Assembly (NCBI RefSeq): GCF_019216885.1
Contig: NZ_JAAQRC020000001.1
Span: 3,587,001-3,651,000 of the forward strand
Direction of reading: 5' to 3'
DNA length: 64,000 bases
Source of the DNA: Methylobacterium sp. SyP6R
GTDB taxonomy: Bacteria; Pseudomonadota; Alphaproteobacteria; Rhizobiales; Beijerinckiaceae
Shown: positions 4,009 through 36,761 of the stretch, piece by piece
Numbering within the stretch: position 1 is the stretch's first letter
How the letters are laid out: the number at the start of each line of letters is the position of its first letter
Notes under the pieces: model-generated
The model's database searches: none
What the model was told of the DNA's origin: nothing
Seen by the model: only the letters and a program-made list of their open reading frames with translations
Program-made: the position numbers and the translations under genes

Positions 4009-5607
4009 ATGCCCACCCCCATCAAAAAAGTCCTGATCTCCGACACCCTTTCCCCCGCGGCGATCGCGATCTTCCGCGAGCGCGGCATCCAGGCCGATCT
4101 CCGCCCCGAGCTCGGCAAGGACAAGGAAGCCCTCGCCGCGGCCATCGGCGAGTATGACGGCCTCGCCGTCCGCTCGACCACGAAGGTGTCCGCCGCGCTC
4201 CTGGAGCGCGCCGGCCGCCTCGCGGTGATCGGCCGGGCCGGCATCGGCGTCGACACGATCGACGTGCCCGCCGCGACCGCCCGCGGCGTGATCGTGATGA
4301 ACACGCCGCACGGCAACGCCGTGACCACCGCCGAGCACGCCATCGCGCTGATGCTCTCGCTCGCCCGCCAGATCCCGCAGGCCGACGCCTCGACGCAAGC
4401 GGGTCGCTGGGAGAAGAACCGTTTCCTCGGCATCGAGCTGACGGCGAAGACCCTCGGGGTCATCGGCTGCGGCAATATCGGGGCGATCGTGGCCGACCGC
4501 GGCATCGGCCTCAGGATGCGGGTCATCGCCTACGACCCGTTCCTGACGCCCGAGCGCGCCGTGGCTTTGGGCGTCGAGAAGGTGGAGCTCGACGACCTCC
4601 TGCGCCGGGCCGACGTCATCACCCTGCACGTCCCGCTCACCGACAAGACCCGCAACATCCTCTCAGGTGAGGCGCTGGCGCGCACCAAGCCCGGCGTGCG
4701 GATCGTCAACTGCGCCCGCGGCGGCCTCGTCGACGAGGTGGCCTTGCGCGCCGCTCTCGAATCCGGCCACGTCGCGGGCGCGGCCTTCGACGTGTTCACC
4801 GAGGAGCCGGCCAAGGACAACGTGCTGTTCGGCCATCCGAACATGGTCTGCACGCCGCATCTCGGCGCCTCGACCACCGAGGCGCAGGAGAACGTGGCGC
4901 TCCAGGTCGCCGAGCAGATGAGCGACTACCTGCTCCACGGCGCGATCCGCAACGCGGTCAACTTCCCGTCGATCTCCGCCGAGGAGGCGCCGCGCCTGCG
5001 GCCCTACGTGACGCTCGCCGAGCAGCTGGGCTCGTTCCTCGGCCAGCTCACCGAGGCGCCGATCCGCGGCATCCGCCTCGTCTACGAGGGCGAGGCGGCG
5101 GAGCTGAACACCAAGGCGCTCACCGCGGCCGCGGTGACCGGCGCGCTGCGGCCGTTCCTGGAGGGCGTCAACATGGTCTCGGCGATCGAGGTGGCGCGGG
5201 CCCGCGGCATCCAGGTCGAGACCGCGACCCGCACCGCCGTCGAGGGCCCCTACGCGTCGCGCCTCCACCTGACGGTCGAGGCCGAGGACATGCCCCGCGA
5301 CGCCGCCGGCACGGTGTTCGGCGACGGCCGCCCGCGCTTCGTCGAGATCCGCGGCATCGCGCTCGAGGCCGCGGTGGCGCCGCACATGCTCTACATCCGC
5401 AACGCCGACCAGCCCGGCTTCATCGGCCGGTTCGGCACGCTGATGGGCGAGGCCGGCGTCAACGTCGCCACCTTCCATCTCGGCCGCGACCGGCCGGGCG
5501 GCGACGCGATCTGCTTTGCCGCCATCGACGAGGCGGTCTCGCCCGACCTCCTGCAGGCGATCGAGGCGATTCCGCAGGTGAAGCGGGCGCGGGCGGTACG
5601 GTTCTGA
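4009..5607 (+). CDS. serA: D-3-phosphoglycerate dehydrogenase
   Basis: A 532-residue long-form SerA that oxidises 3-phosphoglycerate to phosphohydroxypyruvate with NAD, the first step of serine synthesis. The order is N-terminal substrate-binding lobe, Rossmann domain with GCGNIG at about residues 153-158, catalytic NCARGG and TPHLGAST elements, an intervening domain, and a C-terminal ACT domain (MLYIRNADQPGFIGRFGTLM) that normally gives serine feedback. The frame is open upstream through the repeat. The start MPTPIKKVLISD is chosen because it begins the conserved fold; earlier ATGs would translate repeat sequence. It pairs functionally with serC upstream. Confidence 0.93.
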   Translation: MPTPIKKVLISDTLSPAAIAIFRERGIQADLRPELGKDKEALAAAIGEYDGLAVRSTTKVSAALLERAGRLAVIGRAGIGVDTIDVPAATARGVIVMNTPHGNAVTTAEHAIALMLSLARQIPQADASTQAGRWEKNRFLGIELTAKTLGVIGCGNIGAIVADRGIGLRMRVIAYDPFLTPERAVALGVEKVELDDLLRRADVITLHVPLTDKTRNILSGEALARTKPGVRIVNCARGGLVDEVALRAALESGHVAGAAFDVFTEEPAKDNVLFGHPNMVCTPHLGASTTEAQENVALQVAEQMSDYLLHGAIRNAVNFPSISAEEAPRLRPYVTLAEQLGSFLGQLTEAPIRGIRLVYEGEAAELNTKALTAAAVTGALRPFLEGVNMVSAIEVARARGIQVETATRTAVEGPYASRLHLTVEAEDMPRDAAGTVFGDGRPRFVEIRGIALEAAVAPHMLYIRNADQPGFIGRFGTLMGEAGVNVATFHLGRDRPGGDAICFAAIDEAVSPDLLQAIEAIPQVKRARAVRF

Positions 5608-5647: not shown

Positions 5648-6050
5648 TCAGCGGATGGTTTCGACCGCGACGGCCGCGGTGGCCGCGATGTCGCGCCAGC
5701 GCCGCTCCGCCGTCAGCGCCGTCGCAGCCTCCCGCCTGGCCAAGGCCAGGCAGTAGCGGTCGCCGAGCGACAGGCCGAGATGCAGCGTGATCGGCCTCAA
5801 CATCCCGGCGGAGACGGACAGGTCCGCATCCGCCGGCACGACGCGAATCGGGAGCGGCCGCAGCATCGCCTCGATGTCGGAACGCGCCGCACCGAGCTTG
5901 GCGTAGTGGCTGACGACCTCCGCCCAGTTCACGCGCCCAGTTCACGGCCCCCATGGCGGCGCCATCGATGACGGCCTTGACGCGATCCGCGCCCGGCTCG
6001 TCGAGCAGGAGGGCGAGAAGGGCCGAGGCATCCAGAACGAAGACGCTCAT
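5648..6050 (-). pseudogene. vapC: VapC-type PIN-domain toxin, broken by a 13-bp tandem duplication
   Basis: The N-terminal part reads [20 protein letters not shown], with the PIN-domain first aspartate. The C-terminal part continues in another frame ([13 protein letters not shown] ... LGDRYCLALA). The frames switch exactly at a tandem duplication of CGCCCAGTTCACG (5921-5933 and 5934-5946). Deleting one 13-base copy restores a continuous 129-residue VapC with NWAEV intact and the GDRYCLALA PIN motif. The toxin ribonuclease is therefore presumably inactive, unless the duplication is an assembly artefact or a reversible slippage site. Its start overlaps the antitoxin stop by four bases (ATGA), the usual VapBC coupling. 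Confidence 0.85.
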
Positions 6051-26700: not shown

Positions 26701-28041
26701 ATGACGACAGCGACGATGCGCCTCGGCGCCTTCTTCTACGCCACCGGCCACCACGTCGCCGGCTGGCGCCACCCGTCGAGCGAGGCCGATGGCGGGCTCG
26801 TGCTCGACCGCTACGTGGGATGGGCCAAGCGCGCCGAGGCCGCGAAGTTCGACCTGATCTTCCTGGAGGACGGCACCGGCATCCGCGACGCCGACCTGCG
26901 TTCCAGCGAGCGCACCGCCCGCTCTGCGCATTTCGAGCCGGTCACCCTGCTCTCGGCGCTGGCCGCGGTCACGGGCCGCATCGGCCTCGTCGCCACCACC
27001 TCGACGAGCTTCAACGAGCCCTACAACGTCGCCCGCCGCTTCGCCTCCCTCGATCACTTGAGCGGCGGCCGCGCCGGCTGGAACCTCGTCACCTCGGCCA
27101 CCGACCTGGAAGCGGCGAATTTCGGCAACGACACGATCTCCCGCCACGCCGACCGCTACGAGCGGGCGGAGGAATTCGTCGACGTGGTTCTCGGGTTGTG
27201 GAACACCTGGGACGACGACGCGGTCGTGATCGACAAGGCGTCGGGCCAGTTCTCGAAGCCCGACGGGTTCCGGCCCCTCGACCACAAGGGCAAGCATTTC
27301 GAGGTTCGGGGTCCGCTCAACATCCCGCGCACGCCGCAGGGCCAGCCGGTGCTGGTCCAGGCGGGCTCGTCGGGCCCCGGCAAGGACCTGGCGGCGCGCA
27401 CCGCCGAGATCGTGTTCACGGCCAACCAGACCCTCGACGAGGCGGTGGAGTTCTCCCGCGACCTGAAGGGGCGGATGGCCCGCTTCGGCCGCTCGCCCGA
27501 CGACCTCAAGGTCATGCCGGGGCTGTTTCCGGTGGTCGGCCGCTCCGAGGCGGAGGCGCGGGACAAGTTCGAGGAGTTGCAGGCGCTGATCGATCCCGTC
27601 GTGGGCCTGGCGCTCTTGAGCCGCATGGTCGGCCACGACCTCTCGGGCTTCGACCCCGACGAAGCGGTGCCGGACCTGCCCGCGACGGAGGGGCTGAAGT
27701 CGCGCCAGCAGCTGATGTTCGACCTCGCCCGGCGGGAGGGCCTGAGCCTGCGCCGGCTCTATCTGCGGATCGCCGGCGCCCGGGGCCACTCGCAGATCGT
27801 CGGCACGCCGGCCCAGATCGTCGACGAGATGGAGGCGCGGTTCCGGGCCGGGGGCGCCGACGGCTTCAACATCATGCCGCCGACCCTGCCGGGCGGTCTC
27901 GACGACTTCATCGAACTCGTTCTGCCCGAGCTTCGCCGCCGCGGGTTGTTCCGTGACCAGTACGAGGGCCGGACCCTGCGCTCGCATCTCGGCTCGCGCC
28001 CGCCCCTGGGTCATGGACCGGGTCGTCCAGCCCAGCACTGA
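26701..28041 (+). CDS. NtaA/SnaA/DszA-family flavin-dependent monooxygenase
   Basis: A 446-residue bacterial luciferase-like monooxygenase of the nitrilotriacetate / pristinamycin / dibenzothiophene-sulfone group. Features are the N-terminal GAFFYATGHHVAGWRHP, FDLIFLEDGTGIRDAD, TSTSFNEPYNVARRFASLDH, SGGRAGWNLVTSA and GQPVLVQAGSSGPGKDLAAR. These enzymes use reduced flavin from a partner reductase to oxidise or cleave C-N or C-S bonds. The adjacent MetB-like enzyme suggests sulphur scavenging, but this is inference. Confidence 0.88.
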   Translation: MTTATMRLGAFFYATGHHVAGWRHPSSEADGGLVLDRYVGWAKRAEAAKFDLIFLEDGTGIRDADLRSSERTARSAHFEPVTLLSALAAVTGRIGLVATTSTSFNEPYNVARRFASLDHLSGGRAGWNLVTSATDLEAANFGNDTISRHADRYERAEEFVDVVLGLWNTWDDDAVVIDKASGQFSKPDGFRPLDHKGKHFEVRGPLNIPRTPQGQPVLVQAGSSGPGKDLAARTAEIVFTANQTLDEAVEFSRDLKGRMARFGRSPDDLKVMPGLFPVVGRSEAEARDKFEELQALIDPVVGLALLSRMVGHDLSGFDPDEAVPDLPATEGLKSRQQLMFDLARREGLSLRRLYLRIAGARGHSQIVGTPAQIVDEMEARFRAGGADGFNIMPPTLPGGLDDFIELVLPELRRRGLFRDQYEGRTLRSHLGSRPPLGHGPGRPAQH

Positions 28042-28398
28042 ACCCTCCCCCCTGCACAGGGCCGTCCGGGGACAATTCTTTTTAGAATCAAGCGCGCGTT
28101 TCCCCTCTCCCGAGTGGGAAAGGAGAAATGCGTGACCTTTACAGTTCTCGGACAGCCTCGCCTCTGCGGGAAAGGGTTGACGGCGCGGGTCCCCGGATCG
28201 ACTGAGAGACGGAAGACACGTCTCGACTACCTCCGGACCGACACCCCCTGGTAAAGTCCGGCAACCTGTGCAGGATATCCCGGGACGACGGTCGTGGCAT
28301 GCGAGCGGCGGCGGCGGTTAATCCCAGATATCTGTGAGTCCATCGAGGGTTATACCTCCGCGGACAATATTGGTAAAACTTGCATAGGCATAGTAGAC
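28042..28398. other. Intergenic stretch marking the edge of the accessory region
   Basis: It contains an inverted repeat ATTCT-TTTT-AGAAT (28075-28088), terminator-like for the upstream gene, and a short CCCTCTCCC-type fragment around 28100-28125 that resembles the end of the palindromic repeats elsewhere in the window. From about 28310 base composition drops (runs such as GGTAAAACTTGCATAGGCAT), giving a plausible promoter for the next gene. No gene is supported; the next frame is open back to 28294 but lacks conserved-looking sequence. Confidence 0.5.
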
Positions 28399-28971
28399 AT
28401 GCTCGAACCGAATCAGGTCGTCCGCACGTTCCAGGAACAGAATCCGATCCAGATGCAACCGGACGAGATCGAGACCATCCTGGCGACGATCCGGGCAATG
28501 CCCGAAGAAGGGATCATGATCGAGTGGGGCTCCGGCGCCTCGACGATCCGCTGGCTGCAAGAGATGCACGGCAGGCAGAGGCTTATCTCGATCGAACACA
28601 ATGCGCTATGGTTCAACAAAGTCAAGAACGTCATTGACACAGATCCAGATCTTGCCCAGCGCCTGACTTACCACATGTGCGCATCGAACGGATTTTTCGA
28701 TCACGGCTACGGAATGCCAAGCGAGGAGAATCCCCTCGGCTTGGATGAATACTTCAACCCCGATCCGACGATCTACGACGCCGACGTCTTTCTCATCGAC
28801 GGCGTCGCCCGGGGCACCTGTGCGCAGATGGTCTTGATGAAGGCATCGAAAGCCAACCCGGTGATCTATCTCCACGATTGGTACACGCGACGGGGCTGGT
28901 ACTCCTGGTCGGTCGGGTTGTTTCGTCAGCACAAGCGGGCCGGCGACACGCTCTGCCGTCTCTGGCGTTGA
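28399..28971 (+). CDS. Class I SAM-methyltransferase-like protein of lower GC
   Basis: A 190-residue Rossmann-type protein. The glycine-rich loop IEWGSGASTIRWL (about residues 38-50), the strand LISIEHN and the DVFLIDGVARG strand with an acidic end match the class I SAM-dependent methyltransferase fold. The C-terminal VIYLHDWYTRRGWYSWS fills the usual last strands. Codon use and GC are clearly below those of the neighbours, a sign of horizontal transfer. The start MLEPNQVV was chosen over upstream codons in the same frame. Substrate unknown, no obvious partner on either side. Confidence 0.65.
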   Translation: MLEPNQVVRTFQEQNPIQMQPDEIETILATIRAMPEEGIMIEWGSGASTIRWLQEMHGRQRLISIEHNALWFNKVKNVIDTDPDLAQRLTYHMCASNGFFDHGYGMPSEENPLGLDEYFNPDPTIYDADVFLIDGVARGTCAQMVLMKASKANPVIYLHDWYTRRGWYSWSVGLFRQHKRAGDTLCRLWR

Positions 28972-29116
28972 CGCGACGCCGATCCGCAGCCTGCCCGCGC
29001 CACAACCGGCTAGCAATGTACGGCAACCTGTGCTGCATATTAGTCCGTCATCACCGGCGCGCACCGTCGCCGGCCCGCGCCGGGGACGCGGTCTCGTCTT
29101 GCCATCGTCCGGAGAG

Positions 29117-30085
29117 ATGCCCGAAGCGGCCCGGCCGCGCCTGACGCCGGCCGCGCTCGCGCGCCGTGCCGCCGCCCTCGCGCGCGGCGAGCGGCTCACG
29201 GTCGTCGGCCTGACGCGCGACGGCGTAGGGGAAGCGCTGGCGGCCGGCGAGGTCGATCGCGCCGCGCTCCTCGTCGCCGTCGATGACCCGCGCAGCAGCG
29301 CCGCGGTGATCGACGGCCTGCTCGACGACCTCGCCGAACTGGCGCTGGCCCGCTGGCCGGAGTGGCGCGACGCCGTGGCGCCGGATGTCTCTGTCCCCTG
29401 GCTCAAGGCGGCGGCGGCGGTGGCGGCCTCCGGGCGCCCGCCCCGGTTCCGCAGGATGGCACGGGCACTCGAATGCGGGCAGTTGCTGCGGGCGGTCGAT
29501 CCCGGCAGCATGATCCTGGTGGCGGAGGTCGATCCGGTCTCGCCGGCGCGGGCGCGGGCGGTGATCGAGGCGCTGGAATGGTGCGCCGGGCACGGCGCGG
29601 CCTGCCTCTTCGCCCTGCCGGCCGAGCCGCCCGACACACCGCCCTATGACCGCATCCTCTACGGTGCCGTCGCGATCGGCCGCGCCGCGGCACCGGTGGC
29701 GGAGCGCTTCATCGCGCCGCGCTCGCGGGCCCACCACGCCAGCGCGGCCGAGCGGCGGATCGAGGCGGCGCTGGCGGCCGACCCGGAGCTCGCCGGCCTG
29801 TTTTCCGGCAATGAACTCGTCGCCGTGGCGGGCGACGGCCGGCAGCCGCGGGTCGACCTGGTCTGCCGCCGGCACCGCATCGTCGTCGAGATCGACGGGC
29901 CGGAGCATCAGGCCAGTCCGAAATTCGGCCAGGATCGCCACCGCGACTACGAGCTGACGGTCGCCGGCTACCTCGTGCTGCGCCTCACCAACGACGAGGT
30001 CGCGGCCGACCTGCAGCGCGCGGTCGAGAAGGTCCGCGCCGTGGTGCGGCTGCGCCGCCTCCCTTCAGGAGACACGACCCGATGA
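29117..30085 (+). CDS. DUF559-type PD-(D/E)XK endonuclease protein, first gene of a three-gene cassette
   Basis: A 322-residue protein whose last 120 residues form a DUF559/Vsr-like nuclease domain. E213 lies in SAAERRIEAAL, D247 in RVDLVC, E258 and D260 in VVEIDGPEHQ, and a conserved DRHRDYELTVAGYLVLRLTN block follows (273-292). All expected catalytic acidic residues are present. The N-terminal 200 residues are helical, alanine-rich and unrecognised; they may bind DNA or a partner. The stop overlaps the next gene by ATGA. The GGAGAG directly touching the ATG at 29117 is poorly spaced, and a GTG at 29030 is an alternative start. Confidence 0.75.
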   Translation: MPEAARPRLTPAALARRAAALARGERLTVVGLTRDGVGEALAAGEVDRAALLVAVDDPRSSAAVIDGLLDDLAELALARWPEWRDAVAPDVSVPWLKAAAAVAASGRPPRFRRMARALECGQLLRAVDPGSMILVAEVDPVSPARARAVIEALEWCAGHGAACLFALPAEPPDTPPYDRILYGAVAIGRAAAPVAERFIAPRSRAHHASAAERRIEAALAADPELAGLFSGNELVAVAGDGRQPRVDLVCRRHRIVVEIDGPEHQASPKFGQDRHRDYELTVAGYLVLRLTNDEVAADLQRAVEKVRAVVRLRRLPSGDTTR

Positions 30086-30765
30086 GCGAGACGCCGACGC
30101 CGGCTCAGGCGCTGATCCTCTGGCGCCTGCTCGGCCGGCAGGGCACCGCCCTGAACAGCGAGATCAAACCGGAGAAAGCCCCGCGCGATGCCTTGCGGAA
30201 GGCCGGGCTGCTGGCGGTGGAGAAGGAGGGACGCTCCTCGCGGCTCACCGTGACCGACAAGGGCTGGAACTGGGCCGGCGGGCATCTGCGCGATCCCCTG
30301 CCCCCGACCATGCGGGTGCTCCAGGACTGGCTCACGCGCCTGCACCACCACCTCGACGCGACGGGCGCGACGCTCGCCGAGTTCGTCGGCCCCGCCCCCG
30401 AGCGGGGGCCGCCGGAGCCGAAGCCGCCGCGAGCCCGGAAGAACGCCACGCCGAAGCCCAGGACGGCTCCGAAAACCAAGGCCGTCCCACCCGATCTGGC
30501 CCGGCTCCGCGCCCGGATCGAACAGGCCTATCTCGCCTGCACCGGCGGCCGGCGGGCCGCGCCGGTGCGCCTCAGCGCCCTGCGGGCGGAACTCGCCGAT
30601 CTCGACCGCGCCGCCGTCGATGCCGGGCTGGCGGCGATCCTGAGCGGCGATCCGAGCATCCGGCTGACCCGGATCAGCGACCCGAAGGCCCTCGACGCCG
30701 CCGAGCGCGACGCCGCTTTCAATCCTGCCGGCGAGCCCTTCCACGAGATCTGGATCCACGCATGA
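30082..30765 (+). CDS. Winged-helix-like protein, second gene of the cassette
   Basis: A 227-residue protein with no family I can name. Residues 7-72 look like a winged helix (ALILWRLLGRQGTALNSEIK, RDALRKAGLLAVEKEGRSSR, LTVTDKGWNWA). A Lys/Pro/Ala-rich linker covers about 110-138. The C-terminal part (RLRARIEQAYLACTGGRRAA, VRLSALRAELADL, DAGLAAIL) may be a second winged helix. Both ends overlap their neighbours by four bases, so translation of all three is coupled and a fixed stoichiometry or complex is likely. A DNA-binding adaptor role is an inference. Confidence 0.7.
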   Translation: MSETPTPAQALILWRLLGRQGTALNSEIKPEKAPRDALRKAGLLAVEKEGRSSRLTVTDKGWNWAGGHLRDPLPPTMRVLQDWLTRLHHHLDATGATLAEFVGPAPERGPPEPKPPRARKNATPKPRTAPKTKAVPPDLARLRARIEQAYLACTGGRRAAPVRLSALRAELADLDRAAVDAGLAAILSGDPSIRLTRISDPKALDAAERDAAFNPAGEPFHEIWIHA

Positions 30766-33700
30766 GCGACGCCCTCGACGCCCTGCGCCGTGTCAACTTC
30801 GACTGGGTGCGCACCCTCGACAGCGTCTGGCTCGATGCCGAGCCGACCGGCGCGCCGAACGAGGCGCTGATCTTAGGGCTCGTCGATGCGCTCCACGCGC
30901 AGGAGCCGGGCAGCCGCCCGCGCGGCCGGGTGCTGGTCGGCGAGCCGGGCATCGGCAAGACCCACCTCGTCGGTCAGATCCGCCGCGAGGTCTGGCACTC
31001 CGGCGGCTGGTTCGTGCTGCTCGACGTGCTCGGGCTGACCGATTTCTGGCGCAGCGCCGCGCTCAGCTACCTCACCGCCCTGATGCAGCCGATGCCGGAC
31101 GGACGGCGCCAGTCCGACGCGGTGCTGGCCGGGGTCGCCCGCCGCTTCAAGGTCGAGGGGCAGGTCGAGCAGGCCTTCAACACCCCCAACATCGACACCC
31201 GAAAGATCGTCGACCTGCTGGTCCGGGCGCTGATGCACGTCGATACGGTGCGGGCGCTCAAGCACCAGGACGTCTTCCGGGCCTTGTGCCTGCTGCGCTC
31301 GCAGGACCTCGCCGCCGTCGGCCTCGCCCATGCCTGGCTCCAGGGCTACGACGCCGACCCGGCCGCCCGCGCCGGCCTCGGCTTCACCATGCCGCCGCCC
31401 CCACCTGTCGAGCTCGTGCGCGGCATGGCCTGGATCATGGGCCTGAGCGGCCCGACCCTCGTCGCCGTCGACCAGATCGACGGCGTGGTCGATGCGAGCC
31501 GCCTGACCCTCGACGACGATTTCGAGCCCGGCCCCGGCCTCGCCGAGATGCTGGCCGCCGGCCTGATGGAGCTGCATGACGGCGCTGGTCGCGGCATGAC
31601 GCTGATCACCTGCCTGACGGATTCGTGGCGGCGGCTGGAGGAGCGTGGGCTGAAATCCGCCTTCGACCGGTTCGAGCCGCCGGTGGTGCTGACGGGCATG
31701 AACAAGCCGGCCGCCGCAGCGGCGCTGATCCGCGGCCGTCTCGCGCCGGCCTACGCCGAGGCCGGTTTCACGCCGCCCTTCCCGACCTGGCCGTTCGGCG
31801 AAGCTGCGATCGCCGCCGCGTCCCGCGTCGCGATGCGGCCGCGCACGCTGCTGATGCGCTGCGACGCCTTCCGCCGCGACTGCCTGGCGAATGGCAGCGT
31901 CACGGTCTGCAACGATCTCATCGAACCCAACAACAACAGTGGCAAGAAAGGCGGCTCGGGTCCCTTCGACCTCGAAGACGCTCGCCGCAAGGCCGACATC
32001 TCCGACATCCTCGACGACGAGGATGCCGGGCTCGGCGAATTGCTGCGCGCTGCCTTCGATCTCTACGCCCTGGAGGACGACCCGCACGACGCGATCGACG
32101 TGGTGAGCAAGGGCGAGCCGGAGCAGAAGCTGCCGCCCCTGCACGGACGGCTCACCTTCCTTCACCGGGACGAGAACGACCGCGAGCGCCACGTCTGCTA
32201 CCGCGCCCTGCTCCAGCCGCACCCGATCGCCTTCCAGGCGCGGTTGCGCGCCGCGCTCACCGCCTCGGGCATCTCGTCGAAGATCCCGGGCCGGGAGTTG
32301 CTGCTGGTGCGCCGCGGCCCGGTGCCGGCGGGCACCAAGACCGGCACCCTGGTCAGCCGGTTCGTCGCCGCGGGTGGCACGCTGATCGACCCGTCCGACG
32401 ACGACCTGCGCACCTTCGTGGCCCTGCGCTCCCTACGCGACGAGGCCTTGCGGGACGGGCGGTTCGACCTGTTCGAGAGCTGGATGCGCGAGACGCTGCC
32501 GGTGCGCGGAACCGCGTTCTTCCGCAGGATCGGCCTGTCCGGCGACGGCACGGAGGCGCAAGGCGGGCGGGGGCGGCGTGGCGGCGAATCTCTCCCGCCG
32601 CTGCCGCCCCGCCAGCCCGGACGGACCATCGATCCATCAGCCCCAGGCCCCGAACCGGAGACGAGGCAGGCCGGCGCCGAGCCCGGCACACCCCCGCGGC
32701 TTCCCCGGGAGCCCGCATCGCCCCAGCGCGCCGAGCCCGAGCCACGGCGCGCCGTGCCGGCCCAGGCCTTCGAGACAGTGACGCGGGCCGCAGAGGCACT
32801 TTCACCCCAAGAGCCCTCCCTCGAGGAGCCCGCCCTCGAGGAGCCCGCCCCCCGGCGCGCTGCCCCGCCATCGGAGCCCATCCCCGACGCCATCCCGGTC
32901 GGCCACCGCATCACCCCCGATGCGCCGCCCGTCGCCCTGCCGCTGAGACTCCTGCCGCGCCACACCGCGATCATCGCCGGGTCCGGCTCGGGCAAGACCG
33001 TGCTGCTGCGGCGCCTGGTCGAGGAGGCGGCGCTCGCCGGCATTCCGGCGATCGTGGTCGATCCCAACAACGACCTGTCGCGCCTCGGCGATGCCTGGCC
33101 GGAGCGGCCCGAAAAGTTCACGCCGGAGGACGACTGCAAGGCCGCCTCTTACGCCGATCGGGTCGAGGTGGTGGTGTGGACGCCGGGCATCCATGCCGGC
33201 AACCCGCTCTTCCTGTCGGCGATGCCGGACCTCGCCGCGAGCGACGACCGCGACGAGCGCGCCCAGGCGATCGAGATGGCGGCCGAGACCCTGGGGCCGC
33301 TCGCCGGTGCCACCAGAAACCTCCAGCGCGGCGTCCTCGCCGATGCCCTGCGGGCCTTCGCGAGCCGCGGCGGCGGCACGCTCGGCGCCTTTACCGAGCT
33401 GCTCGCCGATTTGCCGGACGGCACCAGCCAGATCGGCCGAGCGACGAACCTCGCCGCCGACATGGCGGACCAGCTGCGCGCGGCCGTCGCCACCAACCCG
33501 CTGCTGCGGATCGAGGGCGCGGTGCTCGATCCGGCCCGGCTGTTCTTCGGCCCGACCCGCAACAGAACCCGGATCTCGGTCGTCAACCTGTCGGGCCTCG
33601 CCTCGGAGGCGGCGCGGGAGGATTTCGTCAACCGTCTCCAGATGGCGTTGTTCGGCTGGATCAAGAAGAACCCCTCGCCCCGGGGCCTGCTCTACGTGGT

Positions 33701-34121
33701 CGACGAGGCCCAGACCTTCCTGCCCTCGGGGCGCACGCCGCCGAGCCTCGGCAGCGGGATCAAGCTGGTGGCGCAGGGGCGCAAATACGGGCTGGGGATG
33801 ATCGTGGCGACGCAGGTGCCGCGGGGCATCCACAACCAGGTCGTCTCGAACTGCACGACGCAGTTCTTCGGCCGCCAGAGCGCCCCCGCGACCATCGCGG
33901 CCGCCCAGGAGATCATGGCGGCGAGCGGCGGGGCGGCCCCCGATATCGGCCGGCTCGGGGCGGGCGAGTTCTACTTTGCCACCGAGGGCTCGGGGCGGCC
34001 GGCGAAGCTCCGCACGCCGCTCTGCCTCAGCCACCACCCGGCCAACCCGCCGACGCCCGAGCAGGTGATCGCCCGGGCCAGGGCGTCCGCCGCCGGGATG
34101 GAGGACAAGCGCGGTGGGTGA
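30762..34121 (+). CDS. Two-ATPase protein: N-terminal AAA-type and C-terminal HerA/FtsK-type, third gene of the cassette
   Basis: A 1119-residue protein with two P-loop modules. The first has Walker A GEPGIGKT at 60-67 and Walker B TLVAVDQID at 232-240, in an ATPase domain reaching to about 390. A mixed domain follows (about 400-595), then a Pro/Glu/Arg-rich linker (about 596-725). The second has Walker A GSGSGKT at 740-746, a DPNNDLSRLG segment, Walker B LLYVVDEAQ at 976-984, and VPRGIHNQVVSNCTTQFFGR (1019-1038), which matches the sensor/arginine-finger end of HerA-like DNA translocases. Together with the nuclease it suggests a DNA-translocating nuclease machine. No transposase or integrase is near. 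Confidence 0.85.
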   Translation: MSDALDALRRVNFDWVRTLDSVWLDAEPTGAPNEALILGLVDALHAQEPGSRPRGRVLVGEPGIGKTHLVGQIRREVWHSGGWFVLLDVLGLTDFWRSAALSYLTALMQPMPDGRRQSDAVLAGVARRFKVEGQVEQAFNTPNIDTRKIVDLLVRALMHVDTVRALKHQDVFRALCLLRSQDLAAVGLAHAWLQGYDADPAARAGLGFTMPPPPPVELVRGMAWIMGLSGPTLVAVDQIDGVVDASRLTLDDDFEPGPGLAEMLAAGLMELHDGAGRGMTLITCLTDSWRRLEERGLKSAFDRFEPPVVLTGMNKPAAAAALIRGRLAPAYAEAGFTPPFPTWPFGEAAIAAASRVAMRPRTLLMRCDAFRRDCLANGSVTVCNDLIEPNNNSGKKGGSGPFDLEDARRKADISDILDDEDAGLGELLRAAFDLYALEDDPHDAIDVVSKGEPEQKLPPLHGRLTFLHRDENDRERHVCYRALLQPHPIAFQARLRAALTASGISSKIPGRELLLVRRGPVPAGTKTGTLVSRFVAAGGTLIDPSDDDLRTFVALRSLRDEALRDGRFDLFESWMRETLPVRGTAFFRRIGLSGDGTEAQGGRGRRGGESLPPLPPRQPGRTIDPSAPGPEPETRQAGAEPGTPPRLPREPASPQRAEPEPRRAVPAQAFETVTRAAEALSPQEPSLEEPALEEPAPRRAAPPSEPIPDAIPVGHRITPDAPPVALPLRLLPRHTAIIAGSGSGKTVLLRRLVEEAALAGIPAIVVDPNNDLSRLGDAWPERPEKFTPEDDCKAASYADRVEVVVWTPGIHAGNPLFLSAMPDLAASDDRDERAQAIEMAAETLGPLAGATRNLQRGVLADALRAFASRGGGTLGAFTELLADLPDGTSQIGRATNLAADMADQLRAAVATNPLLRIEGAVLDPARLFFGPTRNRTRISVVNLSGLASEAAREDFVNRLQMALFGWIKKNPSPRGLLYVVDEAQTFLPSGRTPPSLGSGIKLVAQGRKYGLGMIVATQVPRGIHNQVVSNCTTQFFGRQSAPATIAAAQEIMAASGGAAPDIGRLGAGEFYFATEGSGRPAKLRTPLCLSHHPANPPTPEQVIARARASAAGMEDKRGG

Positions 34122-34245
34122 GCCGGCACGGGCGATCTCATCCCGGGCCGGCCCGGCCTAACCGTGATGCCATTTCATCCGGCTTGAGCCGGCCATGCGA
34201 ATCCCATAGCTACAACAAGAATGTGTTTTTCTGAATGACGGGTGC

Positions 34246-35286
34246 ATGGACGCTGCCGATCTTACGTCATGTTCCGATGTTTTCCTGCGCACGATCGAGG
34301 ATTACGGCCTCGCGGGAGGGTGGCATTGGACGTTCACGTCGGGTGAGCAGCGTTGGTCGCCGGGTTTCTTCCGGCTCCTCGGCCTCGATCCTTCCGTCGT
34401 CACCGCCCGCTACGATCTGTTCGTCGAGCTCCTGCATCCCGACGACCGGGTGCAGCTGGCAAGCCCGTCGGAGGTCGTTCAGGGCCATGTCTCGCCGCGC
34501 GCGACCGTCCGGCTGATCAGGCCGGGCGGCGAGCTGCGCGTCCTGTCGGTCCTGTCGGAACTGCGCGTCTCGGCGGAGGGGCGGCCTTTATCCTTGAGCG
34601 GGGTCGTCCTCGACGTCACCGATCGCGAGCGGCTGCGTCAGGCGCAGGCCGCCGAGCAGCGCCGCCGCCAGGCGCTCTACCTGACCTCCTACACGGCGAC
34701 CTATTCCCTCGGCCTCGACCTCGTGCATCATTTCCCTGCCGAAGTCGCGCAGGTGCACGGGTTGTCCCTGGAGGAGATTCAGGTCGATCCGTTCCTGATG
34801 CTGGTGCCGGAGGAGCGCGCGGCCTTTCGGAACCGGGGCTGGGAGATGCACGATCGCCACATGCGCTTCCAGGGAATGCCGCGCGAGCGCCTGGCCAGCG
34901 GCGAGGTGGTCAAGTTCCGCCTCGTCGGCGTGCCGGTGTGGAGTGCGGCGGGCGAGTATCGCGGCTGGACCGGCATGAAGTATCCGGTCCACGAATCCGG
35001 CGCGCCAGCGGGCCGCGCCGACACCCCCGAGGATCCCGCCCTGCGGCGCGCCCTCGAACAGGCCGTGCGAGGCCATCACCTGCGGGCGGCCCGCGGGCTG
35101 CTCGACTGGTCGATGGCGACGCTCGCGGCGGCCGGCGGCCTGTCGCTCTCGACGGTGCGGCGCCTTGAGGACAACCTCGAAGGCCAGGGCGCCCGCTCGC
35201 GCTACAAGGCCGTGACCGCGCTTCGCCAGGCCGGAATCCGCTTCATCGCGATGGATGACGGCGCGATCGCAGTGGCCAGGGTCTGA
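34246..35286 (+). CDS. PAS-domain / C-terminal HTH regulator, copy 1
   Basis: A 346-residue protein. Residues about 20-125 form a PAS fold (WSPGFFRLLGLDP, ELLHPDDRVQLASPSEVVQG, LSGVVLDVTDRERLRQ), and a second PAS-like segment follows (about 150-250: HGLSLEEIQVDPFLMLVPEE). The C-terminus (about 285-330) is XRE-like: LRAARGLLDWSMATLAAAGG, LSLSTVRRLEDN. It is a sensory DNA-binding protein with no kinase domain. An almost identical gene follows 99 bases downstream. It starts 124 bases after the double-ATPase gene. Signal and regulon unknown. Confidence 0.75.
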   Translation: MDAADLTSCSDVFLRTIEDYGLAGGWHWTFTSGEQRWSPGFFRLLGLDPSVVTARYDLFVELLHPDDRVQLASPSEVVQGHVSPRATVRLIRPGGELRVLSVLSELRVSAEGRPLSLSGVVLDVTDRERLRQAQAAEQRRRQALYLTSYTATYSLGLDLVHHFPAEVAQVHGLSLEEIQVDPFLMLVPEERAAFRNRGWEMHDRHMRFQGMPRERLASGEVVKFRLVGVPVWSAAGEYRGWTGMKYPVHESGAPAGRADTPEDPALRRALEQAVRGHHLRAARGLLDWSMATLAAAGGLSLSTVRRLEDNLEGQGARSRYKAVTALRQAGIRFIAMDDGAIAVARV

Positions 35287-35385
35287 TGACGAAAGTCCGG
35301 ACGGAGAACGTGGCGACGGCCTTGACATCGCGGCCATGGTGTCGGCTTTAAAAATGATGAAAATTCGCCACTGAACGCTGTGCGC

Positions 35386-36426
35386 ATGGACGCTGCCGAC
35401 CTCACCTCATGTTCCGACATCTTCCTGCGCACGATCGAAGACTACGGCCTCGTGGGAGGCTGGCGCTGGACGTTCGCGTCGGATGAGCAGCGGTGGTCGC
35501 CGAGCTTCTTCCGGCTCCTCGGCCTGGACCCGTCCATCGCCACCGCCAGCTACGACCTCTTCGTCGAACTTCTGCATCCCGACGACCGGGTGCAGCTGGC
35601 AAGCCCGTCTGAGGCGGTTCAGGGCCACGTCTCGCCGCGCGCGACCGTTCGGCTGATCCGGCCCTCCGGCGAGCTGCGCATTCTGTCGGTCCTGTCGGAA
35701 CTGCGCGTCTCGCCGGAGGGCCGGCCTTTATCCTTGAGCGGGGTCGCCCTCGACGTCACCGACCGCGAGCAGTTGCGTCAGGCGCAGGCCGCCGAGCAGC
35801 GGCGCGGCCGGGCGCTCTACCGGACGACCTACGCGACGGCCTACGCGGTGGGGGTGGATCGGACGCACGATTTCCCGCCCGAGATGGCGCAGGTGCATGG
35901 CCTGTCCCTGCAGGAGATCAGCCTGGACCCCTTCGTCATGGTCGTGCCCGAGGAACGCACGGCGTTCCGCGAGCGCGCCATGGCCGTCCACACTCCGCAA
36001 GTGCGTTTTGTGGGCAAGGCGCGCGAGCGCCTCGCCAACGGCGAGGTCTGGCAGTTCCGCATCATCGGTGTGCCGGTCTGGGACGAGGCGGGGCGCTACA
36101 ACGGTCGGGCCGGCATGAAGTACCCGATCCATCTCTCGGCGGCGACGATCCGGACGGCCGACATTCCCGCGAGCCGACGGGTCCGGCGCGCCCTCGACCA
36201 GACCGTGCGGGCGGATCACCTGCGGGCGGCGAGAGGCCTGCTCGACTGGTCGCGGGGGACACTCGCCCAGGCGAGCGGCCTGTCGCTCTCGACGGTGCGG
36301 CGCCTCGAGGAGGATGCCGAGGGTCAGGGCGCCCGCTCGCGCCACAAGGCCATGGATGCCCTGCGCCGGGCCGGGATCCGCTTCATCGCGATGGATGACG
36401 GCACCCTGGCGGTGGCGAAGACCTGA
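35386..36426 (+). CDS. PAS-domain / C-terminal HTH regulator, copy 2
   Basis: A 346-residue tandem paralogue of the gene at 34246, identical in length and domain order. The N-terminal PAS half is nearly the same (DAADLTSCSDIFLRTIEDYG). The middle sensory part differs more (TTYATAYAVGVDRTHDFPPE against SYTATYSLGLDLVHHFPAE). The HTH (RAARGLLDWSRGTLAQASGL, LSLSTVRRLEEDAEGQGARS) is again conserved. The pattern suggests a recent tandem duplication with divergence in the second sensory region. An in-frame GTG at 35380 lies two codons before the ATG. Confidence 0.75.
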   Translation: MDAADLTSCSDIFLRTIEDYGLVGGWRWTFASDEQRWSPSFFRLLGLDPSIATASYDLFVELLHPDDRVQLASPSEAVQGHVSPRATVRLIRPSGELRILSVLSELRVSPEGRPLSLSGVALDVTDREQLRQAQAAEQRRGRALYRTTYATAYAVGVDRTHDFPPEMAQVHGLSLQEISLDPFVMVVPEERTAFRERAMAVHTPQVRFVGKARERLANGEVWQFRIIGVPVWDEAGRYNGRAGMKYPIHLSAATIRTADIPASRRVRRALDQTVRADHLRAARGLLDWSRGTLAQASGLSLSTVRRLEEDAEGQGARSRHKAMDALRRAGIRFIAMDDGTLAVAKT

Positions 36427-36488
36427 GACGAAAGGCGCGGGCGGGAGCGACCCGCCCGCGCCGTGGCAAGGATTCGGCGGGCCCGGGC

Positions 36489-36761
36489 TCAGCGGGCTCG
36501 GTTGGCCGGGCTCGTCGCCGCGGCGTTGCCGCCGCTGTGGCTCGGCAGGTCGTCGGTGCGGGTGGCGGCGCCGGGCGCCATCGGCGTCACGGTGCCGGTG
36601 GTGGCGGGCATCTCGCGGCCCGGCATACCCTTCTCGGCGTTGCTCTTCACGCTGCCCGGATTGTTCATGTTGTTCTCGGCCGAGCCGGGCACGCCGGTCT
36701 GGGCCAGGGCGGCGCCCGTGAGGGCGAAGGTGGCGGCGAGGGCGAGGATCGTCGTTCGCAT
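36489..36761 (-). CDS. Small secreted hypothetical protein
   Basis: A 90-residue protein with a clear signal peptide (MRTTILALAATFALTGAALA, cut before QTGVPG). The mature part is low-complexity, rich in Asn, Gly, Ser, Thr and Pro (SAENNMNNPGSVKSNAEKGM), with no cysteine. Such proteins are common and unnamed in Methylobacterium. Reading its upstream DNA on the minus strand gives GGACC-N17-CGTT, one mismatch from the alphaproteobacterial EcfG stress promoter (GGAAC-N16/17-CGTT), which is only suggestive. Confidence 0.6.
   Translation of the reverse strand: MRTTILALAATFALTGAALAQTGVPGSAENNMNNPGSVKSNAEKGMPGREMPATTGTVTPMAPGAATRTDDLPSHSGGNAAATSPANRAR

Follow-up and report, generated by a model that had tools for sequence, protein, structure and literature searches.

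A three-gene unit in Methylobacterium

The locus described here lies in a 64,000-nucleotide stretch of the genome of Methylobacterium sp. SyP6R (assembly GCF_019216885.1, contig NZ_JAAQRC020000001.1), referred to below as the window, in whose positions all coordinates are given; its genes A, B and C, together termed the triad, encode a DUF559 nuclease, a predicted DNA-binding protein and a predicted two-motor ATPase (Table 1). A first-pass annotation had described three genes overlapping by four bases, a DUF559 nuclease with all catalytic acids, a protein with one or two winged helices and a 1119-residue protein with two P-loop modules, the second HerA/FtsK-like, and our results bear this description out. 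ATGA occurs at both the A/B and the B/C junction, in agreement with the coordinates of the open reading frames (ORFs). Gene A starts at the ATG at 29117 (322 residues), a longer version of its ORF beginning with the GTG at 29030 (351 residues).

The product of gene A matches DUF559 (PF04480) in Pfam, and the solved structure 3hrl is a relative (2e-4). Residue conservation was counted over 36 sequences (35 related loci and the window), and the three catalytic acids of the nuclease domain are present in every one of them. None of the NurA models in Pfam, NCBIfam or PADLOC is matched. A second DUF559 gene is found elsewhere in the same genome, and DUF559 was dropped as a marker of the triad within the genus, where 97 of 111 genomes match, many of them via stronger matches to other DUF559 proteins.

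For the product of gene B, no family match above cut-off was obtained in the libraries scanned, among them Pfam, PADLOC and NCBIfam. Its AlphaFold2 model (mean predicted local distance difference test score, pLDDT, 88.8) contains an N-terminal winged helix that is supported by fold matches, while the second, C-terminal unit is recognised by element order only (H139–153, H164–170, H176–189, E193–196, H206–211 and E222–225, with block means of pLDDT of 92–97). The first winged helix is similar to AspA, which binds plasmid centromeres, a similarity that we take as a hint only; AspA alone was returned, weakly (0.78 to 0.97), when solved structures were searched by sequence, and a Foldseek search gave nothing below 0.001. 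With a mean identity of 0.594, against 0.565 for A, B is not clearly the faster evolving of the two. A tRNA-Ala(ggc) called by ARAGORN on the minus strand inside gene B (30503–30592) is probably false, no Rfam match being present in 28000–36500.

The two P-loop modules of C were identified in Pfam as AAA_16 (residues 47–110) and HerA/DUF87 (from residue 712). A fold search found an Orc/Cdc6-type fold for the N-terminal part, and the C-terminal motor matches DUF87 at 1.1e-9 and HerA-type chains in the PDB down to 5.4e-12. Each catalytic position of this motor is conserved in 35 or 36 of the 36 sequences where counted, R1007 and Q1018 being present in all of them. The middle domain carries numerous invariant basic residues; the predicted element order over residues 420–542 is alpha-beta-beta-beta-alpha-beta-alpha-beta, with E475 and H477 invariant, and a D..ExK motif is neither present in the domain nor conserved. 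A polyubiquitin match to the N-terminal half of C (5.5e-19) was rejected as the sum of nine repeats of ∼6.5 bits each, and NACHT and most other P-loop matches to C in Pfam fell under their curated cut-offs. In its own genome, a DNA search gave one match to the motor region of C.

Table 1. Genes and predicted domains of the triad, in window coordinates.
Feature	Position	Strand	Remarks
Gene A, nuclease subunit	29117..30085	+	322 residues; DUF559 3.7e-13; from the ORF list
A, N-terminal part, residues 1–200	29117..29716	+	No recognised domain; lower conservation, mean pairwise identity 0.503
A, DUF559 domain, PD-(D/E)XK type, residues 205–313	29729..30055	+	E212, D247 and E258 conserved in 36/36
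Gene B, predicted DNA-binding subunit	30082..30765	+	227 residues; 4-bp overlap with A
B, C-terminal helix-turn-helix/winged-helix-like unit, residues 139–227	30496..30762	+	Element order only
Gene C, predicted two-motor ATPase	30762..34121	+	1119 residues; 4-bp overlap with B
C, Orc/Cdc6-like AAA+ domain, residues 1–393	30762..31940	+	Walker A GEPGIGKT 60–67; D237 and D240 in DQID
C, middle domain, residues 404–593	31971..32540	+	Predicted alpha-beta-beta-beta-alpha-beta; candidate inactive restriction endonuclease
C, proline-rich variable linker	32574..32876	+	Mean pairwise identity 0.211
C, HerA/FtsK-like ATPase, residues 706–1105	32877..34076	+	Walker A 740–746, D981-E982, R1007, Q1018
Outer limits of alignments covering the triad	28976..34104		45/47 loci; L016 and L017 extend to ∼35.3 kb

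Conservation of the triad as a unit

Scanning GTDB genomes by pattern yielded 47 related loci, and in 43 of them A, B and C match in the same order and on the same strand. The remaining four either end at contig edges (L005, L038) or carry internal deletions (L026, L043); among the 43 are several in which C is cut at a contig end and three (L006, L029, L039) with one gene in pieces, which suggests a break. Such conservation excludes a chance arrangement. The four-base overlap is kept between B and C in 38 of the 43 loci and between A and B in 24, the other junctions lying, by the start-choice rule used, between an overlap of 71 bases and a gap of 206 bases. The divergences of A, B and C are correlated (r 0.86–0.87, with none of 999 permutations as high), a correlation that is not separated from species descent. 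Co-conservation had been named as a check in the first-pass annotation, and the triad is indeed conserved as a unit, its order being kept in these loci and in two actinobacteria.

In the first of these, Tsukamurella (L048), a DUF559 gene, a hypothetical gene and a DUF87 gene are annotated in triad order with four-base overlaps, and in the second, Nonomuraea (L049), the ORF list shows the same A-B-C order. Profile comparisons support homology of these genes to A (1.1e-19, for the nuclease part, and 8.7e-20) and to B (3.7e-17 and 2.1e-19), and C is supported by profile comparison in L048 (1.9e-123) and by tblastn in L049 (1.2e-155). The A protein of L048 also matches the PADLOC models DpdF (6e-5) and mREase_II (8.9e-5), in the nuclease stretch alone.

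Remnants of the triad left by deletion were seen in two species (L026/L071 and L043/L080). In them the first 111–119 residues of A lead into C at residue 338 or 85, so that B, the nuclease domain and a portion of the Orc-like domain are missing.

Distribution across lineages

The triad is patchily distributed. Within the genus, the motor region of C finds a match by DNA search in 51 of 111 Methylobacterium genomes, its own included, and none in the other 60. At least four of the 51 do not represent intact triads: two carry the deletions (G034 and G102; L071 and L080), one a fragment (G026; L067) and one, G059, a divergent 622-base stretch (L066). In G059 a lone, divergent match to the HerA part (37–48% identity) lies at 4223–4928 of L066, with no A or B in the surrounding 16 kb. 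Across the order, five of 397 evenly drawn genomes match, three of them Methylobacterium and its own among them, in a DNA-level test that misses distant copies; A, B and C also occur in order in two genomes from other families of the order (L087, L088).

A protein search recognised 1385 relatives of C among 8000 scored candidates. The named ones among the 120 listed are Methylobacterium or Methylorubrum, with one Rhodopseudomonas; the matches listed for C alone include eight named Tsukamurella species, Mycolicibacterium, Mycobacterium, Williamsia, Rhodococcus and a Nocardiopsis entry.

No relative of the triad was found in 50,697 phage records, and viral contigs, covered by pattern scan, yielded no confirmed one. 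Matches are present in three of 72,556 plasmid records, and one copy of the triad is on a 1.57 Mb plasmid typed as mobilizable. One of the three, the Nonomuraea record NZ_LT559118.1, carries a plasmid label but, at 11.85 Mb, is probably a chromosome. The plasmid label of the Tsukamurella record looks doubtful too. At 5858–21924 of L048 the triad lies with VapBC genes and a helicase of the DEAD/DEAH type inside a ribosomal-protein cluster, between rpsQ and rplN.

Genomic sites and neighbouring genes

The surroundings of the triad differ widely between loci. In 38 of the 47, no DNA outside the triad is common with 20000–44000 of the window; eight share real flanks with it, and L030 shares two short transporter-gene stretches only. 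When 89 flanks, including the two of the window, were compared by tblastx, 43 matched no other at the limits used and the others formed 15 groups, each with two to seven members. An exact empty site was not found; in L061 and L062 the ABC operon that adjoins the triad of the window has no triad beside it, but the upstream genes differ.

The neighbouring genes were scanned in 28 loci, with at most four genes per side; 200 of 209 were covered, nine longer than 700 residues being left out, and a threshold of 1e-10 was used for PADLOC. In a set of 120 flank proteins, mad3 (4), mad2 (4), mad8 (3) and one each of a type I methyltransferase, a type II methyltransferase, PDC-S14 and PDC-M45B were among the 25 of 34 families listed. 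Among the other 80 were four matches to mad3 and single ones to SspA, DndA, mad2 and DrmC; two of these 80 proteins carry integrase domains. The mad, DndA and SspA matches may be ordinary proteins. Transporters, hydrolases and metabolic enzymes predominate among the Pfam families listed for the flanks (25 of 98 and 25 of 93).

Next to the triad of the window, two related tandem regulators with PAS and helix-turn-helix domains (34246–35286 and 35380–36426) lie 3' of C and are matched in related loci of the clade, with differing copy patterns. On the 5' side is the ORF 28294–28971, which has no Pfam match; among the related loci listed for the clade, only L016 and L017 match it, over just 82–83 bases. 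It contains a WGSGAST stretch that resembles a methyltransferase motif. The triad had been placed in an accessory region beside a lower-GC gene, which holds only in part. The ORF, at 57.1% GC, is the only part where GC content is low, but the triad itself, at 73.4%, is above the 70.8% of the window.

A predicted capture module and its alternatives

Taken together, the triad is a unit of defined domains in which the Walker and catalytic residues are conserved, and its distribution is patchy and extends over many sites. Its domain set recalls the Orc/CDC6-coupled HerA/FtsK capture class, a computational prediction of 2024 (PMC10853773). According to the main text of that article, its members are mobile neighbourhoods in which HerA/FtsK is coupled with an Orc/CDC6 ATPase that carries an inactive restriction endonuclease (REase) between its AAA+ core and a winged helix-turn-helix domain (wHTH), with an active REase from either of two families (one of them shared with AbiJ) and with wHTHs, a subset having an extra gene with 2–4 rapidly evolving wHTHs. 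Defence is predicted there, with invader DNA being caught and fed to the nuclease. On balance, we consider that the triad is probably a horizontally spread three-gene module of the Orc/Cdc6-plus-HerA/FtsK capture kind, with a predicted function against invader DNA, and that it would be a variant of this class.

We infer the formation of a complex, its target, ring loading, translocation, cutting and a benefit to the cell, each step of the mechanism being read from domain content. In the proposed mechanism, the winged helices of B, together with C's basic middle domain, would bind a DNA feature of the invader, and the Orc/Cdc6-like ATPase of C would load as a ring at the bound site. The HerA/FtsK ATPase of C may then move the duplex, with A, the DUF559 nuclease, docked to it and cleaving the DNA as it is reeled in. 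Since the unit has no modification gene, discrimination would have to act through a feature or state of the DNA and not through a self-made mark.

Several observations weigh against this interpretation. The lack of a modification gene within the triad is one of them, and the defence role is a prediction for the type of system, derived from sequence and models. The clade of the window widely retains the 3' neighbours (the PAS regulators and an ABC transporter) and in part those on the 5' side, which, like the listing of C for eight named Tsukamurella species, is what might be expected of a stable chromosomal function. In the model of C, no clear wHTH follows the middle domain, for which an REase fold is only a candidate. 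Finally, there is no clear defence-island neighbourhood: defence-like genes are few among the 200 flank proteins, a count made without a random-locus control, and the triad therefore does not resemble a regular resident of defence islands. The enrichment in defence islands raised by the first-pass annotation is thus not supported so far, which, lacking that control, is not a firm negative. Nevertheless, the patchiness, the changes of site and the domain logic make the inferred defence role more likely, and both a housekeeping repair or segregation complex and a mobile-element module are less likely than an anti-invader module.

The best surviving alternative, which we regard as unlikely, is a housekeeping complex for DNA end processing or chromosome segregation, similar to archaeal HerA-NurA or FtsK, in which C would bind and pump the cell's own DNA and A would trim its ends. 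A HerA-type motor adjoining a nuclease is consistent with this, as are the stable position in the window's clade, the Tsukamurella listings and the predominance of transport and metabolism among the neighbours' listed Pfam matches; however, 60 of the 111 genomes of the genus gave no match, nor did nearly all of those drawn from the order (the latter in a DNA-level test of low reach), the sites are many and different, two of the 47 loci are deletion remnants, and A is of the DUF559 type and matched no NurA model.

A more speculative proposal, in our view quite improbable, is an anti-plasmid or anti-conjugation system common to alphaproteobacteria and actinobacteria. Segregating or transferring replicons would be recognised via the winged helix of B, which resembles the plasmid centromere-binding proteins AspA and TubR, whereupon an Orc/Cdc6-type ring would be loaded and the replicon reeled through HerA into the DUF559 nuclease. 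If true, an initiator-type loader and a packaging-type pump would be combined in one polypeptide.

Less likely than the housekeeping complex, and in our view improbable, is a conjugative or integrative mobile-element module serving transfer or maintenance of its own DNA. Weak TrwB-like matches to the motor of C, the copy on the mobilizable plasmid, the resemblance of the first winged helix of B to AspA (hint as it is) and the two integrase-domain flank proteins point in this direction. The phage, viral and plasmid record counts given above argue otherwise, and because the triad alone is shared with the window's surroundings in 38 loci, there is no sign of an integrase or transfer gene common to them.

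Membership in MADS or another catalogued defence system is very improbable, and identity with MADS was rejected: PADLOC mad8 does match C (6.5e-24) and its actinobacterial relatives, but the same model (PDLC04140) also matches every one of the 111 genus genomes and of the 14 control genomes, mostly with best scores of ∼139 bits versus 83 for C (these ubiquitous matches, by their ubiquity and length, are probably FtsK), so that the mad8 match alone does not indicate MADS, and no other mad model matches A, B or C, while for the window's A and B there is no PADLOC match below 1e-3.

Comparison with known systems

We return to the capture-module interpretation and compare it with characterised and predicted systems. 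The first-pass annotation had invoked the logic of NurA-HerA. A nuclease with a HerA-type motor is an analogy only: A matched DUF559 and no NurA model, and C has a second, Orc/Cdc6-like motor. The defence systems HerA-DUF4297 and SIR2-HerA also combine a HerA-type ATPase with an effector enzyme, as in the triad, but the effector is different, and they are two-gene systems not known to include an Orc/Cdc6 domain or a wHTH gene.

DndFGH, as described in the main text of PMC10853773, is similar in having a HerA/FtsK motor at the end of its largest subunit, the multi-wHTH protein DndG and an REase, but the nuclease of the triad is a separate protein; among the Dnd models of PADLOC, C matches DndH only at 0.0042 and 0.068, over ∼40 residues, and A and B match none. 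BREX-related capture (BRC), to judge from the excerpted text of PMC12839542, shares a HerA/FtsK ATPase, an ORC/Cdc6 ATPase and a multi-wHTH protein with the triad but has seven components, including PglZ, a STAND NTPase, DUF4007, GNAT and TGT, for none of which a Pfam match above cut-off was found in the triad. Druantia, as far as the excerpt of PMC13316683 describes it, is different.

The closest resemblance is to the predicted class of PMC10853773. The statement that no named system matches holds in that no PADLOC or NCBIfam system model fits, but the domain set resembles this class: an Orc/Cdc6-like AAA+ domain and a HerA/FtsK motor are both present in C and are encoded together with a nuclease and predicted wHTHs, and a domain of C, a candidate only, sits where the class has its inactive REase. 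The nuclease, however, is of the DUF559 type where the main text names two REase families, and the wHTHs are in B, with none clear behind the middle domain of C. That main text makes no mention of DUF559, Methylobacterium or Mycolicibacterium, and among the matches listed in the open-licence literature, without supplements, nothing on the triad goes beyond its description of the class. To judge by its models, the 2023 PADLOC catalogue does not contain the triad, which is small enough for direct cloning. If the interpretation is correct, it would make it simple to examine whether, in such systems, motors of the HerA/FtsK type draw invading DNA into a nuclease, and how that DNA is told to be foreign where there is no modification gene, and the predicted capture class would gain a compact three-gene member found in two phyla, with a conserved nuclease and both motors in a single protein.

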